Source: Sulfuricella denitrificans skB26 (GTDB lineage Bacteria > Pseudomonadota > Gammaproteobacteria > Burkholderiales > Sulfuricellaceae). Taken from it: a stretch of 64,000 bases of DNA. Every line of letters begins with the position of its first letter. Positions within the stretch are counted from its first letter, which is position 1. Below are positions 46,820-51,920 of this stretch, piece by piece. The translations under genes were made by a program, and so were the position numbers. The DNA is taken from positions 744,001-808,000 of the forward strand of contig NC_022357.1 of assembly GCF_000297055.2 (NCBI RefSeq), in the 5' to 3' direction. Under the pieces are notes generated by a model. That model was not told the origin of the DNA, made no database searches, and was given only the letters and a program-made list of their open reading frames with translations.

Positions 46820-46845
46820 AAAAAATGGGCGGCCGAAGCCGCCCC
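46820..46845 (-). terminator. Terminator after the first SQR gene
   Basis: On the minus strand GGGCGGC-TTCG-GCCGCCC then ATTTTTT, 37 bases after the stop at 46881. The sequence is almost identical to that after the second copy at 48425-48450. Confidence 0.88.
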
Positions 46846-46880
46846 AAAACGGAGACACAACAAAAAAACTTCAGAAGTCG

Positions 46881-48149
46881 CTATTTCAGCTTTTTGATGC
46901 CCAGTACATTGAGGACATATTTTTCATAAATCGGTTCGGTAGTGCCTTTTTTCATTTTTCGCAAAAAGTACTTCTCGAAGGCGATCTTGGCCAAGTGCAC
47001 CCATTTACCCTCCTTGAACCAGTTGACGTTGCGCGGCGGGATTTGCGGCAGCGCCACGAAGGCTGCGCCGGTGTCGCCGAAATCGGCCAGGCAGATGGCG
47101 TTCCAGGTGGCTTTATGATCGGGTACGTTGCCGTCGAGCATCGCGCATATGTTGTGAACGGCGGCGCTGACCATGCTCTCAAGCATGTAGCCGGTCTTGG
47201 GTGCGCCGGTTGGCACAGGGGTGGATTCAACCGGCGGAATGTCGACACATACGCCCACTGCGTAGATATTGTCGTACTCGGGATTGCGCTGGTAGGGATC
47301 GATCAGGATAAACCCGCTCTGATTGGTCAGGCCATCAATACCGGATACCGCGTCTACGCCCTTGAAAGCCGGCAGTATCATCGAATGTTTAAAGGGCAAT
47401 TCGTGCTCCTTTTTGACATTTCCCATGTCGTCCAGTTCGGTGACGAACATCTTGCCCGGTGCGACCCGGCTGATCATGGCGTTGCATATCCATTTGATAT
47501 GGCGCTCGCGCATGATTGATTCCATCATCCCCCTCGAGTCGCCCACTCCACCCAGGCCAATATGGCCGACGTAGGGTTCGGGGGTGATGAAGGTCATCGG
47601 CACCTGGTCGCGGATCTTGCGTCTGCGCAGGTCGGTTTCCATGATCATGGCGAATTCGTAGGCAGGTCCGAAGCAGGAAGCGCCCTGCGCGGCGCCGACG
47701 ACAATCGGCCCGGGATCCCTGATGAACTGGTTCCATGCCTTGCCAGCTTCGACTGCGTGATCGACGTGGCAGATGGAATACGTATTTTTGCCCGGACCCA
47801 TGCCTTCCACTTCGTCGAAAGCGAGCTTCGGGCCGGTAGCGATGACCAGAAAGTCGTAATCGACGATTTGGCCGTTCATGAGTTCGATCTGGTCTTTTTT
47901 TGGGTGCACTCGTTTCGCTGGTGTAGCGATCAGGTTGATGCCGTTGCGCTCGAAATAGGGGGCGATCGGAATCTCGATGTCTTCGCGGGTGCGCCAGTTA
48001 ACGGCGACCCAGGGGTTGGAGGGGACGAAGTGGAAATTGGGTGAATCAGAAATTACGGTGACTTTATCCCAGGGCCGAATCTTCTCCCGCATTTCATACG
48101 CACACGTCATACCGCCGGTGCCTGCGCCGAGAATTACGATATGTGCCAT
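46881..48149 (-). CDS. sqr: Sulfide:quinone oxidoreductase, copy 1
   Basis: 422 aa from the second ATG (48149), chosen because the paralogue starts there (MAHI..ILGAG); the frame also allows 48155. FAD-binding GAGTGG, and all three catalytic Cys at the R. capsulatus positions: Cys127 (SICHVDHA), Cys159 (ASCFGPAYEF) and Cys353 (NAICLADFGD). APKTGYMLESMV and the basic KYFLRKMKKGT membrane-docking end are typical of Acidithiobacillus-type SQR. Oxidises sulfide to polysulfide/sulfur and reduces quinone on the periplasmic face. Preceded by its own 65-aa gene; about 80% identical to copy 2 by eye. Confidence 0.93.
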   Translation of the reverse strand: MAHIVILGAGTGGMTCAYEMREKIRPWDKVTVISDSPNFHFVPSNPWVAVNWRTREDIEIPIAPYFERNGINLIATPAKRVHPKKDQIELMNGQIVDYDFLVIATGPKLAFDEVEGMGPGKNTYSICHVDHAVEAGKAWNQFIRDPGPIVVGAAQGASCFGPAYEFAMIMETDLRRRKIRDQVPMTFITPEPYVGHIGLGGVGDSRGMMESIMRERHIKWICNAMISRVAPGKMFVTELDDMGNVKKEHELPFKHSMILPAFKGVDAVSGIDGLTNQSGFILIDPYQRNPEYDNIYAVGVCVDIPPVESTPVPTGAPKTGYMLESMVSAAVHNICAMLDGNVPDHKATWNAICLADFGDTGAAFVALPQIPPRNVNWFKEGKWVHLAKIAFEKYFLRKMKKGTTEPIYEKYVLNVLGIKKLK

Positions 48150-48214
48150 ATGCACGAGTTCTCTGGAGTTAATGCTCTTGTTTTCAAGGTGATCAATTTC
48201 AGTTCGACAAGGGA

Positions 48215-48412
48215 TTACCAGACGAAGACTCGGGTCATTGCTTCCAGCCCCTCGTCTACGATGGCCTGCAGGTCTTCCGGCGCGTCCTCGCTTTCCATCG
48301 CCAGGCGGGTGTAAATTGACAGTGACTTCAGCGCACAGGCGATCTTGGCGACATCGCAGGCGGTCGTATCATCCAGGTTTACACCTTCCCGCAGATTCCA
48401 TTGGACAGACAT
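48215..48412 (-). CDS. 65-aa SQR-associated protein, copy 1
   Basis: 65 aa from the ATG at 48412, AAGGAAAA 6 bases upstream. Starts MSVQWNLREGVNLDD, has a helical middle (VAKIACALKSLS, SEDAPEDLQAIVDEGLEAM) and ends VFVW. No signal peptide, membrane helix or metal motif. Its paralogue precedes the other SQR (about 80% identical). I recognise no named family; pairing suggests an accessory or regulatory partner of SQR. Confidence 0.8.
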   Translation of the reverse strand: MSVQWNLREGVNLDDTTACDVAKIACALKSLSIYTRLAMESEDAPEDLQAIVDEGLEAMTRVFVW

Positions 48413-48424
48413 TCTGTTTTCCTT

Positions 48425-48450
48425 AAAAAAATGGGCGGCCGAAGCCGCCC
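48425..48450 (-). terminator. Terminator after the second SQR gene
   Basis: On the minus strand GGGCGGC-TTCG-GCCGCCC followed by ATTTTTT, 30 bases after the stop at 48480. It should uncouple most transcription of the downstream copy, which then needs read-through or its own promoter. Confidence 0.88.
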
Positions 48451-48479
48451 AAAACGGAGGCACAACAAAAAATGATGCT

Positions 48480-49748
48480 TTATTTTTTCTTCTTGATACC
48501 GAGTACGCCGAGTACGTATTTCTCGTAAATCGGTTCGGTGGTGCCTTTTTTCATCTTGCGAATGAAATATTTCTCGAAGGCGATCTTGGCCAGATGCACC
48601 CATTTCCCTTCTTTGAACCAGTTGACGTTGCGCGGTGGAATCTGCGGCAACGCTACGAATGCGGCACCAGTGTCGCCGAAGTCGGCCAGGCAGATGGCGT
48701 TCCAGGTGGCCTTGAAATCCGGCTCCTTGCCGTCAAGTACAGCGCGGATATTGTGTACCGTAGCGGTGACCATGGTTTCGATCATGTAGCCGGTCTTGGG
48801 CGCGCCGGTTGGCACCGGGGTGGCTTCTACCGGCGGAATGGCGACACACACGCCGATTGAGTAAATATTGTTGTATTTAGGGTTGCGCTGGAATGGATCG
48901 ATCAGGATGAACCCGCGCGGGTTGGTCAATCCCTCGATCCCGAATACGGCATCCACACCCTTGAAGGCCGGCAGCATCATCGAGTGTTTGAATGGCAGTT
49001 CGTGTTCCTTCTTGACGTTGCCCATGTCATCCATTTCGGTGACGAACATCTTGCCGGGTTCGACTTTGGTGACCTTGGCATTGCAAATCCACTTGATGTG
49101 GCGGTCGCGCAAGGCTGATTCCATCAGTCCCTTGGAGTCTCCTACGCCGCCCAGGCCGAGGTGGCCAATGTAGGGTTCGGCAGTGACAAAGGTCATCGGT
49201 ACCTTGTCGCGGATCTTGCGTCTGCGCAGGTCGGTGTCCATGATCATGGCGAATTCATAGGCAGGCCCATAGCAGGAAGCCATCTGCGCGGCACCCACTA
49301 CGATCGGGCCCGGATCCCGAATGAATTGGTTCCATGCATTGCCGGCTTCGACTGCGTGATCGACGTGGCAGATGGAATGCGTATTCTTGCCTGGCCCCAT
49401 GCCTTCTACTTCGTCGAATGCGAGTTTCGGTCCGGTGGCGATGACAAGGAAATCATAGTCGATAATCTGGCCGTCGGTCAGTTCGATCTGGTTTTTTTCC
49501 GGGTGAACGCGCTTCGCCGGTGTCGCGATCAGATTGATGCCCTTGCGCTCGAAATAGGGCGCGATGGGAATGGTGATGTCTTCCTTGGTGCGCCAATTGA
49601 CCGCAACCCAAGGGTTGGAAGGGGTGAATTGGAATAGTGGGGAGTCCGAAATAACGGTGACCTTGTCTTCGGGGCGAACTTTCTCCCGCATTTCGTACGC
49701 GCACGCCATGCCGCCGATGCCTGCTCCTAGAATGATGATATGTGCCAT
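48480..49748 (-). CDS. sqr: Sulfide:quinone oxidoreductase, copy 2
   Basis: 422 aa. Same architecture as copy 1: FAD motif LGAGIGGM, catalytic Cys127 (SICHVDHA), Cys159 (MASCYGPAYEF) and Cys353 (NAICLADFGD), and the amphipathic C-terminal end (KYFIRKMKKGT). It is the promoter-proximal copy: 65-aa gene, then this, under the sigma-54 promoter at 50046-50061. Whether the two copies differ in sulfide affinity cannot be told from sequence. Confidence 0.94.
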   Translation of the reverse strand: MAHIIILGAGIGGMACAYEMREKVRPEDKVTVISDSPLFQFTPSNPWVAVNWRTKEDITIPIAPYFERKGINLIATPAKRVHPEKNQIELTDGQIIDYDFLVIATGPKLAFDEVEGMGPGKNTHSICHVDHAVEAGNAWNQFIRDPGPIVVGAAQMASCYGPAYEFAMIMDTDLRRRKIRDKVPMTFVTAEPYIGHLGLGGVGDSKGLMESALRDRHIKWICNAKVTKVEPGKMFVTEMDDMGNVKKEHELPFKHSMMLPAFKGVDAVFGIEGLTNPRGFILIDPFQRNPKYNNIYSIGVCVAIPPVEATPVPTGAPKTGYMIETMVTATVHNIRAVLDGKEPDFKATWNAICLADFGDTGAAFVALPQIPPRNVNWFKEGKWVHLAKIAFEKYFIRKMKKGTTEPIYEKYVLGVLGIKKKK

Positions 49749-49808
49749 GTATACAGTTCCTTATGAGTTAAGATTTTTCTTGGGGGATTTTTTTGGAGTA
49801 GTCCCGAG

Positions 49809-50006
49809 CTACCAGACGAAAATCCGGGTCATCGCCTCAAGCCCTTCGTCTACGATGGCTTGCAGGTCTTCCGGCGCGTCCTCGCTTTCCATCGCCAGGC
49901 TGGTATAGGCTGACAGGGATTTTAGCGCACAGGCGATCTTGGCAACTTCGCTGGCAGTAGCGTCGTCCATTTTTACACCTTCGTGAAGTGTCCAATTTGC
50001 GGTCAT
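49809..50006 (-). CDS. 65-aa SQR-associated protein, copy 2
   Basis: 65 aa starting MTANWTLHEGVKMDD and ending ALEAM-type helix then RIFVW; identical in most positions to copy 1 (differences cluster in the first 25 residues). GGAG lies 8 bases upstream of the ATG. First gene of the sigma-54-driven unit and 60 bases before sqr copy 2. Confidence 0.8.
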   Translation of the reverse strand: MTANWTLHEGVKMDDATASEVAKIACALKSLSAYTSLAMESEDAPEDLQAIVDEGLEAMTRIFVW

Positions 50007-50045
50007 CTTTTTTCTCCGTGTTAAAAGGGTTACGGTATTCCTTTA

Positions 50046-50061
50046 AGCAATCAACGTGCCA
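50046..50061 (-). promoter_or_regulatory. Sigma-54 promoter of the SQR unit
   Basis: On the minus strand TGGCACG-TTGA-TTGCT, an exact match to the -24/-12 consensus (TGGCACG-N4-TTGCW). Predicted start site near 50036, leaving a leader of about 30 bases before the 65-aa gene at 50006. Confidence 0.88.
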
Positions 50062-50113
50062 ATAATTACCATTGTTGATTATTAAGGGTATTTATGCGAT
50101 GCCATTTTTGTTG

Positions 50114-50126
50114 TGACAGACTGTCA
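50114..50126. promoter_or_regulatory. Putative activator-binding dyad 1
   Basis: TGACA-GAC-TGTCA (also readable as TGACAG-A-CTGTCA). It lies about 55-80 bases upstream of the sigma-54 promoter, the usual range for an enhancer site. Confidence 0.6.
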
Positions 50127-50229
50127 TGCCAATATGTCAGTCATAGTCACTCATAGAGGAAAACTTTCTAGCCCTGTTGAGACCACAACTTTTTGATTTA
50201 CATGGCAGCTTGGTCATGGGTATACTTTG

Positions 50230-50248
50230 TCATGACAATCTGTCATGA
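50230..50248. promoter_or_regulatory. Putative activator-binding dyad 2
   Basis: TCATGACA-ATC-TGTCATGA, a perfect 8-bp inverted repeat containing the same TGACA-N3-TGTCA core as dyad 1, exactly 119 bases away. It ends 14 bases before the regulator's ATG, fitting autoregulation. Confidence 0.6.
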
Positions 50249-50262
50249 GGTGATGCTAACAA

Positions 50263-51639
50263 ATGAACGATCTTTCTCTCGACCTGCAATCTCTGATCAA
50301 TATCCAGGAAAATCCATTCGTCCTGATCGATAAGGATTACCGTGTGGTTTCGGCAAACAATGCTTATTGTCAGGTATATGGTTTGAATCCGGATGAGATT
50401 GTGGGCCGTTTGTGCCACGAAATTTCCCATCATTCCTCCGTTCCCTGTCATGAGAACGGCGAGGTCTGTCCACACCAGAAGGTATTTGCAACCGGTGAGG
50501 CTTGCCAGGTACTGCATATTCATTACGACAATAATAATCGCGCTGAGCGGGTGCGCCTCAAGGGATACCCGATTCGCGGGCGGGACGGTTGTCTTTACTT
50601 GGGCGAGGCTATCGTACCGTTGTCATCTTCAGAAGAACTGGATTGCGACGAGATGCGCATGATTGGCCATTCGCCCGCTTTTCTGGAGTGCGCAGACAAG
50701 CTGAGCCGAGTGGCCGAGTCGGATGCTCCGATACTGTTGTATGGGGAAAGTGGCGTCGGTAAGGAACTGGCGGCGGAATTCGTGCACAAGCTTTCAACTC
50801 GGGGCGGCCGTCCCTATGTCTCAGTCAATTGCGCTGCTATCGCTGAATCCATGTTTGAGAGTGAATTCTTTGGCCACGAGCGAGGTGCTTTCACGGGCTG
50901 TGTCGGACGCAAACAAGGATTGTTTGAACTGGCGGGTGGCGGAACGCTGTTTCTCGATGAAATCGGGGAAATCCCACTTTCAATGCAACCCAAGCTCCTG
51001 CGTGTGCTGGAAACCGGAGAATTCCGCCGGGTGGGTGGTACGGTTACCCTGACAGCGGATGTGCGGATTATTTCCGCCACCAACCGGAATTTGCTGGAGA
51101 GGGTGGACCAAGGGTTGTTTCGCGAGGATTTGTATTACCGAGTCGCCGGGATCGACGTGATGCTTCCCTCTCTGCGTGAGCGGCGCATGGATATTCCTGC
51201 GCTGGCTGACGCGTTGCTTGCCCGCATCAGCGGGGCAGGGAAAAATATTCCCAAACTTGCTGCAGACGCCATTTCACGGCTGATGAACTACGATTATCCC
51301 GGTAACGTTCGCGAACTGCGTAATGTTTTGCAGAAGGCGGTTGCTTTGTCCAGCAAAGGGATCATTCATGCCAAACATATTCAATTCGACAGCATGAATG
51401 AGGTAAAAGCACAAACGGCAATGCGAACGGGGGTTTCAGTGGGCAGTAGTCCGGTGCTTCCTCCAATGGTGAGCGCTCCTTCCGCTATCTCCATTGAGGA
51501 AATGGAAATTCGTCATATTTGCGAATTGCTGGAACATCACGGCGGGCATCGGCGCACGGTGGCGGATATCCTCGGTATCAGCGAGCGTACGTTGTACCGT
51601 AAACTGAACCGTTACGGGTTGCACCCCGCGAAAGATTGA
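50263..51639 (+). CDS. Sigma-54-dependent activator with Cys-rich PAS domain
   Basis: 458 aa. PAS domain (1-115) with five Cys (Cys36, 51, 62, 69, 81) in the pattern CHEISHH...PC...CPHQ, suggesting a redox, sulfide or metal sensor. AAA+ domain with Walker A GESGVGKE, Walker B GGGTLFLDEIGE, and GAFTGC where the usual loop is GAFTGA. C-terminal Fis-type HTH (RRTVADILGISERTLYRKL). Divergent from the 65-aa/SQR unit with its sigma-54 promoter, so it is the likely sulfide-responsive activator. Ligand is inferred. Confidence 0.88.
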   Translation: MNDLSLDLQSLINIQENPFVLIDKDYRVVSANNAYCQVYGLNPDEIVGRLCHEISHHSSVPCHENGEVCPHQKVFATGEACQVLHIHYDNNNRAERVRLKGYPIRGRDGCLYLGEAIVPLSSSEELDCDEMRMIGHSPAFLECADKLSRVAESDAPILLYGESGVGKELAAEFVHKLSTRGGRPYVSVNCAAIAESMFESEFFGHERGAFTGCVGRKQGLFELAGGGTLFLDEIGEIPLSMQPKLLRVLETGEFRRVGGTVTLTADVRIISATNRNLLERVDQGLFREDLYYRVAGIDVMLPSLRERRMDIPALADALLARISGAGKNIPKLAADAISRLMNYDYPGNVRELRNVLQKAVALSSKGIIHAKHIQFDSMNEVKAQTAMRTGVSVGSSPVLPPMVSAPSAISIEEMEIRHICELLEHHGGHRRTVADILGISERTLYRKLNRYGLHPAKD

Positions 51640-51707
51640 TAAGTAGGTTATTATTACAGGACGGTGTTTTGCCGGTAATGTCTTTGAAATATCAACTGGG
51701 AGAGAAT

Positions 51708-51920
51708 ATGAAAGCAAACGTGGGTGGTATTGACAGGGTGTTTCGCATTGTGGCCGGGATAGTGCTGCTGGCCTTGGTGTTCGTCCTCAAGAGCGAAGAC
51801 GGCCACCTGTGGCTGTGGGGCCTGATTGGCATCGTGCCGCTGGCCACCGGGCTGATGAACTGGTGCCCGGCCTACAGTCTGTTCGGTGCGAGTACTTGCT
51901 CAGCGGAAAAAAAGAAGTAA
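51708..51920 (+). CDS. DUF2892 inner membrane protein
   Basis: 70 aa from the ATG at 51708, GGGAGAG 7 bases upstream. KANVGGIDRVFRIVAGIVLL, then a second membrane helix (IGIVPLATGLM) and NWCPAYSLFGAST: the YgaP-C-like/DUF2892 family with conserved Cys in WCPAY and a second Cys near the end. Such domains are often fused to rhodaneses. Located after the SQR regulator, possibly cotranscribed; a sulfur-linked role is plausible but unproven. Confidence 0.85.
   Translation: MKANVGGIDRVFRIVAGIVLLALVFVLKSEDGHLWLWGLIGIVPLATGLMNWCPAYSLFGASTCSAEKKK

Follow-up and report, generated by a model that had tools for sequence, protein, structure and literature searches.

A small cysteine-bearing protein encoded ahead of a duplicated sulfide:quinone oxidoreductase is a candidate accessory of the enzyme in Sulfuricella denitrificans

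To our knowledge, neither the in vivo sulfur acceptor of bacterial sulfide:quinone oxidoreductase (SQR) nor the question of whether SQR works alone has been settled. A locus of Sulfuricella denitrificans skB26 asks whether the enzyme has a small protein partner. In the window analysed here (64,000 nucleotides of contig NC_022357.1, positions 744,001 to 808,000; positions below are those of the window), the minus strand carries at 46820-50006 two head-to-tail modules, A then B, each composed of a gene for a 65-residue protein, an SQR gene and a terminator. We use p65 as the working name of the small protein and call its copies p65_A and p65_B. The initial annotation had described the modules in these terms, and had read the recurrent pairing of the two genes as the sign of an overlooked SQR partner. 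Encoded just ahead of SQR, apparently co-regulated with it and duplicated together with it in tandem, p65 is probably a helper of SQR that has so far gone unrecognised. As a more specific reading, to which we give a probability of about 40%, p65 would be a dedicated accessory of the Acidithiobacillus ferrooxidans-type SQR in betaproteobacterial sulfur oxidisers, most likely a sulfane-sulfur acceptor on its Cys26.

Two modules copied as a unit

SQR_A aligns over its full length (residues 2-420, 550 bits) with PDB entries 3sz0 and 3t31 and their relatives, its closest solved relatives, which we take to be from A. ferrooxidans. Both SQRs show the FAD/NAD-binding disulfide-reductase fold (Pyr_redox_2, E 1.9e-14 and 9.4e-15), and the three cysteines listed for SQR_A in Table 1 are present in SQR_B as well, as the initial annotation had it. 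In SQR_A they align with the cysteines of the SICxVDH, ASCxGPAYE and WNAxCxAD motifs of the A. ferrooxidans enzyme, presumably its catalytic three. By these alignments SQR_A and SQR_B are classed as A. ferrooxidans-type sulfide:quinone oxidoreductases; the resemblance to the NCBIfam model 'type III selenoprotein SQR' is weak (116 bits, with the cut-off at 525). They differ from the A. ferrooxidans case in that SQR here sits behind p65 and is duplicated (p65 was not searched for in A. ferrooxidans).

The two p65 copies are identical at 52 of 65 residues (80%; 81% at the nucleotide level) and the two SQRs at 361 of 422 (85.5%; 82%). No p65 beyond these two was found in the organism's own 3.2-Mb genome in a search at E<=10. 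Three Sulfuricella-type genomes (G000, G010, G011) hold both tandem copies, and among them the pairwise ratio of nonsynonymous to synonymous substitution (0.03-0.30) points to purifying selection on all four module genes; decay of either copy is therefore not apparent. The B copies cluster together in the SQR tree and in the p65 tree, each time on a long stem (0.17 with support 100 for SQR; 0.20 with support 100/99 for p65). Since the B copies group together and all three species hold both, the duplication predates their split, and it copied the whole unit of p65, SQR and terminator in an ancestor common to three or more Sulfuricella-type species. Unlinked second pairs also occur, on two separate contigs of one genome (G017; L014 and L022) and in a Thiobacillus metagenome-assembled genome (records DYIY01000001 and DYIY01000005; L041 and L044), and pair duplication is therefore not limited to the tandem form.

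Pairing of p65 with SQR across genomes

The broadest search covered a collection of 84,980 species, each represented by a single genome (genome_contigs), by a scan that finds only loci with either of two conserved peptides and may miss records close to the organism's own genome. It gave 65 p65 loci, in 49 of which p65 is followed immediately by a co-oriented SQR gene; eight of the other 16 end within 450 nucleotides past p65, and eight have at least 0.96 kb and no SQR there. A search of 100 relatives, the own genome included, found p65 in 18, and SQR lay beside p65 in all 22 loci fetched. The gap between the two genes was 15-231 nucleotides in the paired SQR rows examined.

Many of the pairs lie next to a gene for a FisR-like regulator, and others do not. 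We compared the surroundings of 26 of the 33 FisR-adjacent pair loci with those of 16 that lack FisR, using reading frames of at least 70 residues; p65 falls below this limit and is present by selection. Among the 30 largest neighbour clusters, SQR frames alone were common to both settings, and three minor clusters were shared (in one of the 16 loci without FisR and in 4-5 of the 26 with it). SQR being the only major element in common, the p65-SQR pair has been kept while its surroundings and promoter type changed.

In a quick-method SQR tree of 113 rows (those under 380 residues or with stops were excluded, and three copy-B genes appear twice with ends trimmed differently), the p65-linked SQRs form one large clade, which also holds 12 unlinked ones, and one small separate clade, with seven changes in total. 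Two genomes (G466 and G467) have p65 away from SQR and have kept it nonetheless; their SQRs are sisters of p65-linked ones. Every p65-positive genome in the class sample (7 of 369) and in the relatives sample (18 of 100), both of which include the own genome, has an A. ferrooxidans-type SQR. The class search gave 14 genomes at E<=0.01, of which the seven counted lie below 1e-10; the other seven are matches inside long frames of 428-504 residues. The hypergeometric probability for all seven p65 genomes falling among the 106 SQR genomes of the 369 is 1.4e-4, and 4.9e-4 for the six non-adjacent cases. The p65-SQR pairing is real, as annotated, and supports a functional link of p65 to SQR.

In one genome (G020) p65 is truncated (L019:1501-1587) despite adjoining SQR and a FisR-like gene, possibly a loss in progress.

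Promoter, regulator and terminators

FisR is described as an activator of sulfide-oxidation operons in PMC7315123. At the present locus a complete sigma-54 promoter, TGGCAC-N5-TTGCTT, precedes p65_A, and dyads of the ATGACA-N3-TGTCAT type lie between p65 and a divergently transcribed FisR-like gene (Table 1). This combination points to a probable FisR operon headed by p65, in which FisR, we infer, would act on p65 and SQR together. Sensor cysteines of the FisR-like protein are spaced by 11 and 7 residues; we take those of the reference FisR to be C53, C64 and C71, for which a literature text search gave no confirmation.

The arrangement recurs. Within genome_contigs, all 32 scored FisR-adjacent loci have a sigma-54 motif scoring at least 9 of 10.5, placed 51-97 nucleotides ahead of their first p65, and none of 15 scored SQR-paired loci without FisR has one. 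Scoring covered up to 400 nucleotides upstream and required the GG and GC cores. The count omits eight hits whose p65 did not match the p65 motif applied: four fragments (three run off the end of their locus, and L019 is truncated) and four whole genes (L052, L064, L066, L067), which were restored for the p65 tree. Of 23 FisR loci tested, 22 have TGTCAT/ATGACA hexamers in the upstream 250 nucleotides. In the three tandem genomes, the second copy scores only 7.0-8.0 for sigma-54.

The FisR-controlled sulfide-oxidation operons of Cupriavidus and Acinetobacter (PMC7315123) resemble this one in their divergent sigma-54 activator, their sigma-54 promoter and the SQR in the operon. They differ in content: the Acinetobacter operon comprises PDO, SQR, TauE and a homoserine dehydrogenase, as that source describes it, whereas here p65 and SQR stand in two tandem copies.

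The terminators behind the two modules are nearly identical, as noted initially: they have in common a UUCG-capped GC stem, a T-run and the leader TTGTGNCTCCGTTTTGGG. Allowing up to two mismatches, this leader occurs only twice in the genome, behind SQR_A and behind SQR_B. Its consensus, GTTGTG[T/C]CTCCGTTTT, is kept before a UUCG terminator behind SQR in several Sulfuricella-type genomes; it could be a processing signal, or else a small RNA derived from the 3' untranslated region (3'-UTR) whose CUCC resembles an anti-Shine-Dalgarno sequence. An identity of the two 3'-UTRs with the small RNAs PhrS or AniS was considered and rejected, the Rfam matches being below gathering scores and resting mainly on the terminator hairpin. 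The hairpin is retained at the inter-module site in all three tandem genomes; single-copy relatives also have it behind SQR, with stem changes that compensate each other. The inter-module spacer of 67 nucleotides consists of the terminator and then the p65_B start region, and holds no promoter of the kinds scanned for; copy B, lying behind a terminator with no such promoter in the spacer, is thus probably reached by read-through, and is probably expressed less than copy A.

Two side observations concern the surroundings. Directly behind the FisR-like gene, at 51636-51920 on the plus strand, lies a gene for a YgaP-like membrane protein (PF11127), relatives of which are found near FisR in several Sulfuricella-type loci. 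Downstream of the p65-SQR pair in another locus (L142, 4062-4135, minus strand) there is a SAM-alpha riboswitch above the Rfam cut-off.

Table 1. Features of the tandem p65-SQR locus and of its upstream region (window positions)
Feature	Position	Strand	Description
Intrinsic terminator behind module B	46827..46844	-	UUCG-capped GC stem, T-run
Conserved 3'-UTR leader, copy B	46843..46860	-	TTGTGTCTCCGTTTTGGG
SQR_B	46881..48149	-	422 aa, A. ferrooxidans-type by alignment; in the longer-branched copy-B clade
p65_B	48215..48412	-	65 aa; Cys19 and Cys26
Intrinsic terminator between modules	48432..48451	-	UUCG-capped GC stem, then T-run; p65_B start region directly behind the T-run
Conserved 3'-UTR leader, copy A	48448..48465	-	TTGTGCCTCCGTTTTGGG
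SQR_A	48480..49748	-	422 aa, A. ferrooxidans-type by alignment; Cys127, Cys159, Cys353
p65_A	49809..50006	-	65 aa, first gene of module A; sole Cys is Cys26, in IACALKSLS
Sigma-54 promoter	50045..50061	-	TGGCACgttgaTTGCTT; complete motif, 55 nucleotides upstream of p65_A
Candidate FisR enhancer site	50107..50128	.	Dyad TGACAGACTGTCA
Second candidate FisR enhancer site	50226..50247	.	Dyad ATGACAATCTGTCAT
FisR-like regulator, divergent	50263..51639	+	PAS (PAS_4), sigma-54 AAA+ (Sigma54_activat) and Fis-type HTH (HTH_8) domains; Cys51, Cys62, Cys69 in sensor part

The cysteine of p65 and its possible role

No significant match to p65 was obtained in Pfam, NCBIfam or PHROGs (weak ones, such as DUF1659, stayed under the cut-off), and no description of the family was found in the open-access literature subset searched. 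Comparison of folds with the PDB returned 17 matches, the best at E 4.6 and none convincing. A virus or plasmid origin found no backing, with zero relatives in the viral_contigs and plasmids collections; the phage collection was not searched. The family is rare, as just three genomes of a phylum sample of 398 have p65 at E<=0.001, all of them in the organism's own order.

Conservation in the family peaks at VAKIACALKSLSAY. Over 45 aligned members the mean entropy is 0.47 bits at residues 21-34, against 1.87 at residues 1-20, 1.63 at 35-47 and 1.34 at 48-65. The initial annotation had rightly observed that the two copies diverge within their first 25 residues, where 10 of their 13 differences lie, and had ascribed this to partner-specific contacts. 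That explanation does not hold up: because residues 1-20 are the most variable throughout the family, the difference between p65_A and p65_B needs no partner effect.

Cys26 lies within the conserved segment, in the most conserved helix predicted, and 73 of 77 distinct members retain it. The remaining four make up a single clade, and they alone carry a cysteine at the position of Trp5 and another as the last residue. Since every one of the 77 members has at least one cysteine, a thiol is retained even where its position has shifted. The AlphaFold (AF2) model of p65, built from 45 homologues (mean predicted local distance difference test score 89, predicted TM score 0.69), has helices at 15-38 and 48-62, and marks residues 6-7 and 63-64 as short strands, which are presumably paired. 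The predicted fold is thus a two-helix hairpin whose ends meet, and it seems to bring the Trp5 position and the last residue together. The relocation of the cysteine is confined to one lineage and may have been a single event. p65 would be a small helper protein encoded in the operon of the quinone-reducing flavoenzyme that it serves, and its family, undescribed and seemingly unrelated, has an almost invariant cysteine.

The branch without Cys26 is gammaproteobacterial (L090, L091, L092, L093), and SQR is present elsewhere in each of its four genomes. L089 (a locus of the same genome as L086) has a TGA in frame, which had raised the suspicion of a selenocysteine in place of Cys26; this TGA falls at the position of the N-terminal Trp and not at the cysteine, and the idea was dropped.

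If p65 is a sulfane-sulfur acceptor, the locus might work as follows. SQR would produce sulfane sulfur, to which the FisR-like regulator would respond by switching on, together with sigma-54, the transcription of p65 and then of SQR. p65 would take up the sulfane sulfur released by SQR as a persulfide on Cys26 and hand it on to the next step, so that SQR could keep turning over; copy B, dependent on read-through, would be the less expressed. Both the contact between p65 and SQR and the persulfide chemistry are postulated here, and the acceptor role gains weight from the almost invariant cysteine. In a bolder form, which we hold to be rather unlikely, p65 would be a sulfur-accepting protein of a new type, a 65-residue helical hairpin that takes the persulfide directly from SQR on Cys26, and the gammaproteobacterial branch would have moved the working thiol from mid-helix to the paired termini. 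TusA, DsrC and DsrE are small soluble sulfur-carrier proteins with conserved cysteines in sulfur oxidisers; p65 resembles them in these respects and differs from them in having neither a family match nor a convincing PDB fold match.

Several observations weigh against a dedicated SQR accessory with such a role. p65 has no Pfam or NCBIfam match to TusA, DsrC, DsrE or rhodanese, that is, to a known sulfur-carrier family, and the four members above lack the very residue proposed to carry the sulfur. Most SQR-bearing genomes have no p65 match: 29 of the 47 among the 100 relatives, counting one (G002) whose SQR lies at a contig end, and 99 of the 106 in the class sample. Even a genome of the same genus (G003, L139) has no p65 match, although its SQR is 91% identical and adjoins FisR. 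p65 is dispensable, an accessory and not a requirement. The pairing also has a taxonomic limit. Overall, the family is not found mostly away from sqr, whereas in the main gammaproteobacterial branch seen it is: most p65 copies there stand alone, and no sigma-54 promoter was found at the stand-alone members scored (best 8.5). In the 22 genome handles with non-adjacent p65, SQR was found in 21, SoxB in 20 and DsrA in 18 (SoxB in 19 and DsrA in 17 above the curated cut-off); two handles, G316 and G480, are one genome, which makes the counts 20, 19 and 17 of 21 distinct genomes. Since SoxB and DsrA co-occur with p65 to a similar degree, co-occurrence marks sulfur oxidisers and not SQR specifically, and in one genome with p65 (G471) SQR, SoxB and DsrA were all not found. 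When p65 was joined in frame to SQR, the AF2 fold, from a shallow alignment of 36 rows, did not place p65 confidently (predicted TM score 0.73, p65 blocks 54-74), a result that we take to count neither way.

The best-surviving alternative, which we consider somewhat unlikely, is that p65 acts structurally, as a subunit stabilising SQR or coupling it to its quinone or the membrane, in the manner of small DUF1641 proteins with other quinone enzymes, with Cys26 as a packing or regulatory residue. We assume YjlC to be such a protein, its own match reaching only E 0.14. p65 is small, helical and encoded just ahead of SQR, and precedent for a structural role is better than for an acceptor: the PDB lists YjlC as 'NDH-2 membrane coupling protein' in the entries of YjlD (9pxk, 9snk), an NDH-2-like protein with a weak match to SQR_A, and according to PMC8808070 the DUF1641 protein ForE is required for the quinone coupling of ForC. 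In both cases a small protein partners a quinone-reducing enzyme. In two relatives (L191, L192), DUF1641 genes also lie close to genes for distant SQR-like proteins (20-23% identity), another pairing of a small protein with an SQR-like one. The YjlC chains are longer, however (140 and 176 residues against 65), an almost invariant cysteine sets p65 apart from YjlC and ForE, and homology to DUF1641, the best homology idea for p65, was undetectable: PF07849 was absent among the matches of 45 members (E<=1), and hhalign gave a probability of 0.3% against three DUF1641 sequences. A purely structural role would leave unexplained the cysteines at both ends in the clade without Cys26, and also how most SQRs manage without p65. 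The cysteine pattern slightly favours a sulfur acceptor over a structural or quinone-coupling subunit.

It is less probable still that p65 belongs to the response to sulfide or sulfane sulfur without contacting SQR, as a cytoplasmic persulfide buffer or carrier that acts elsewhere and shares the SQR operon for co-expression only. The stand-alone p65 genes of gammaproteobacterial sulfur oxidisers, which have no sigma-54 promoter and of which two lie beside aprA-like genes, fit this idea, as does a SoxB co-occurrence nearly as strong as that of SQR. Against it, the betaproteobacterial p65 has SQR as its partner in nearly all loci seen, despite altered neighbours and promoter type. By eye, the two aprA-like (adenylylsulfate reductase alpha) genes are convergent to p65 (L081:432-2357, L083:4879-5613), and stand-alone p65 often adjoins a small gene resembling LexA/S24 peptidases. 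A chance neighbourhood, in which p65 and SQR were duplicated together merely from being adjacent, is compatible with the tandem duplication taken by itself and very improbable, because the adjacency is conserved, in 49 of 65 loci, in several betaproteobacterial families and in changed surroundings.

A dedicated SQR accessory, most likely one that accepts sulfane sulfur on Cys26, is thus the reading we prefer. It offers a functional lead for a family without an entry in the libraries searched (Pfam, NCBIfam, PHROGs), and a small, conserved and probably co-regulated protein with an almost invariant cysteine makes the question of the SQR sulfur acceptor directly testable.

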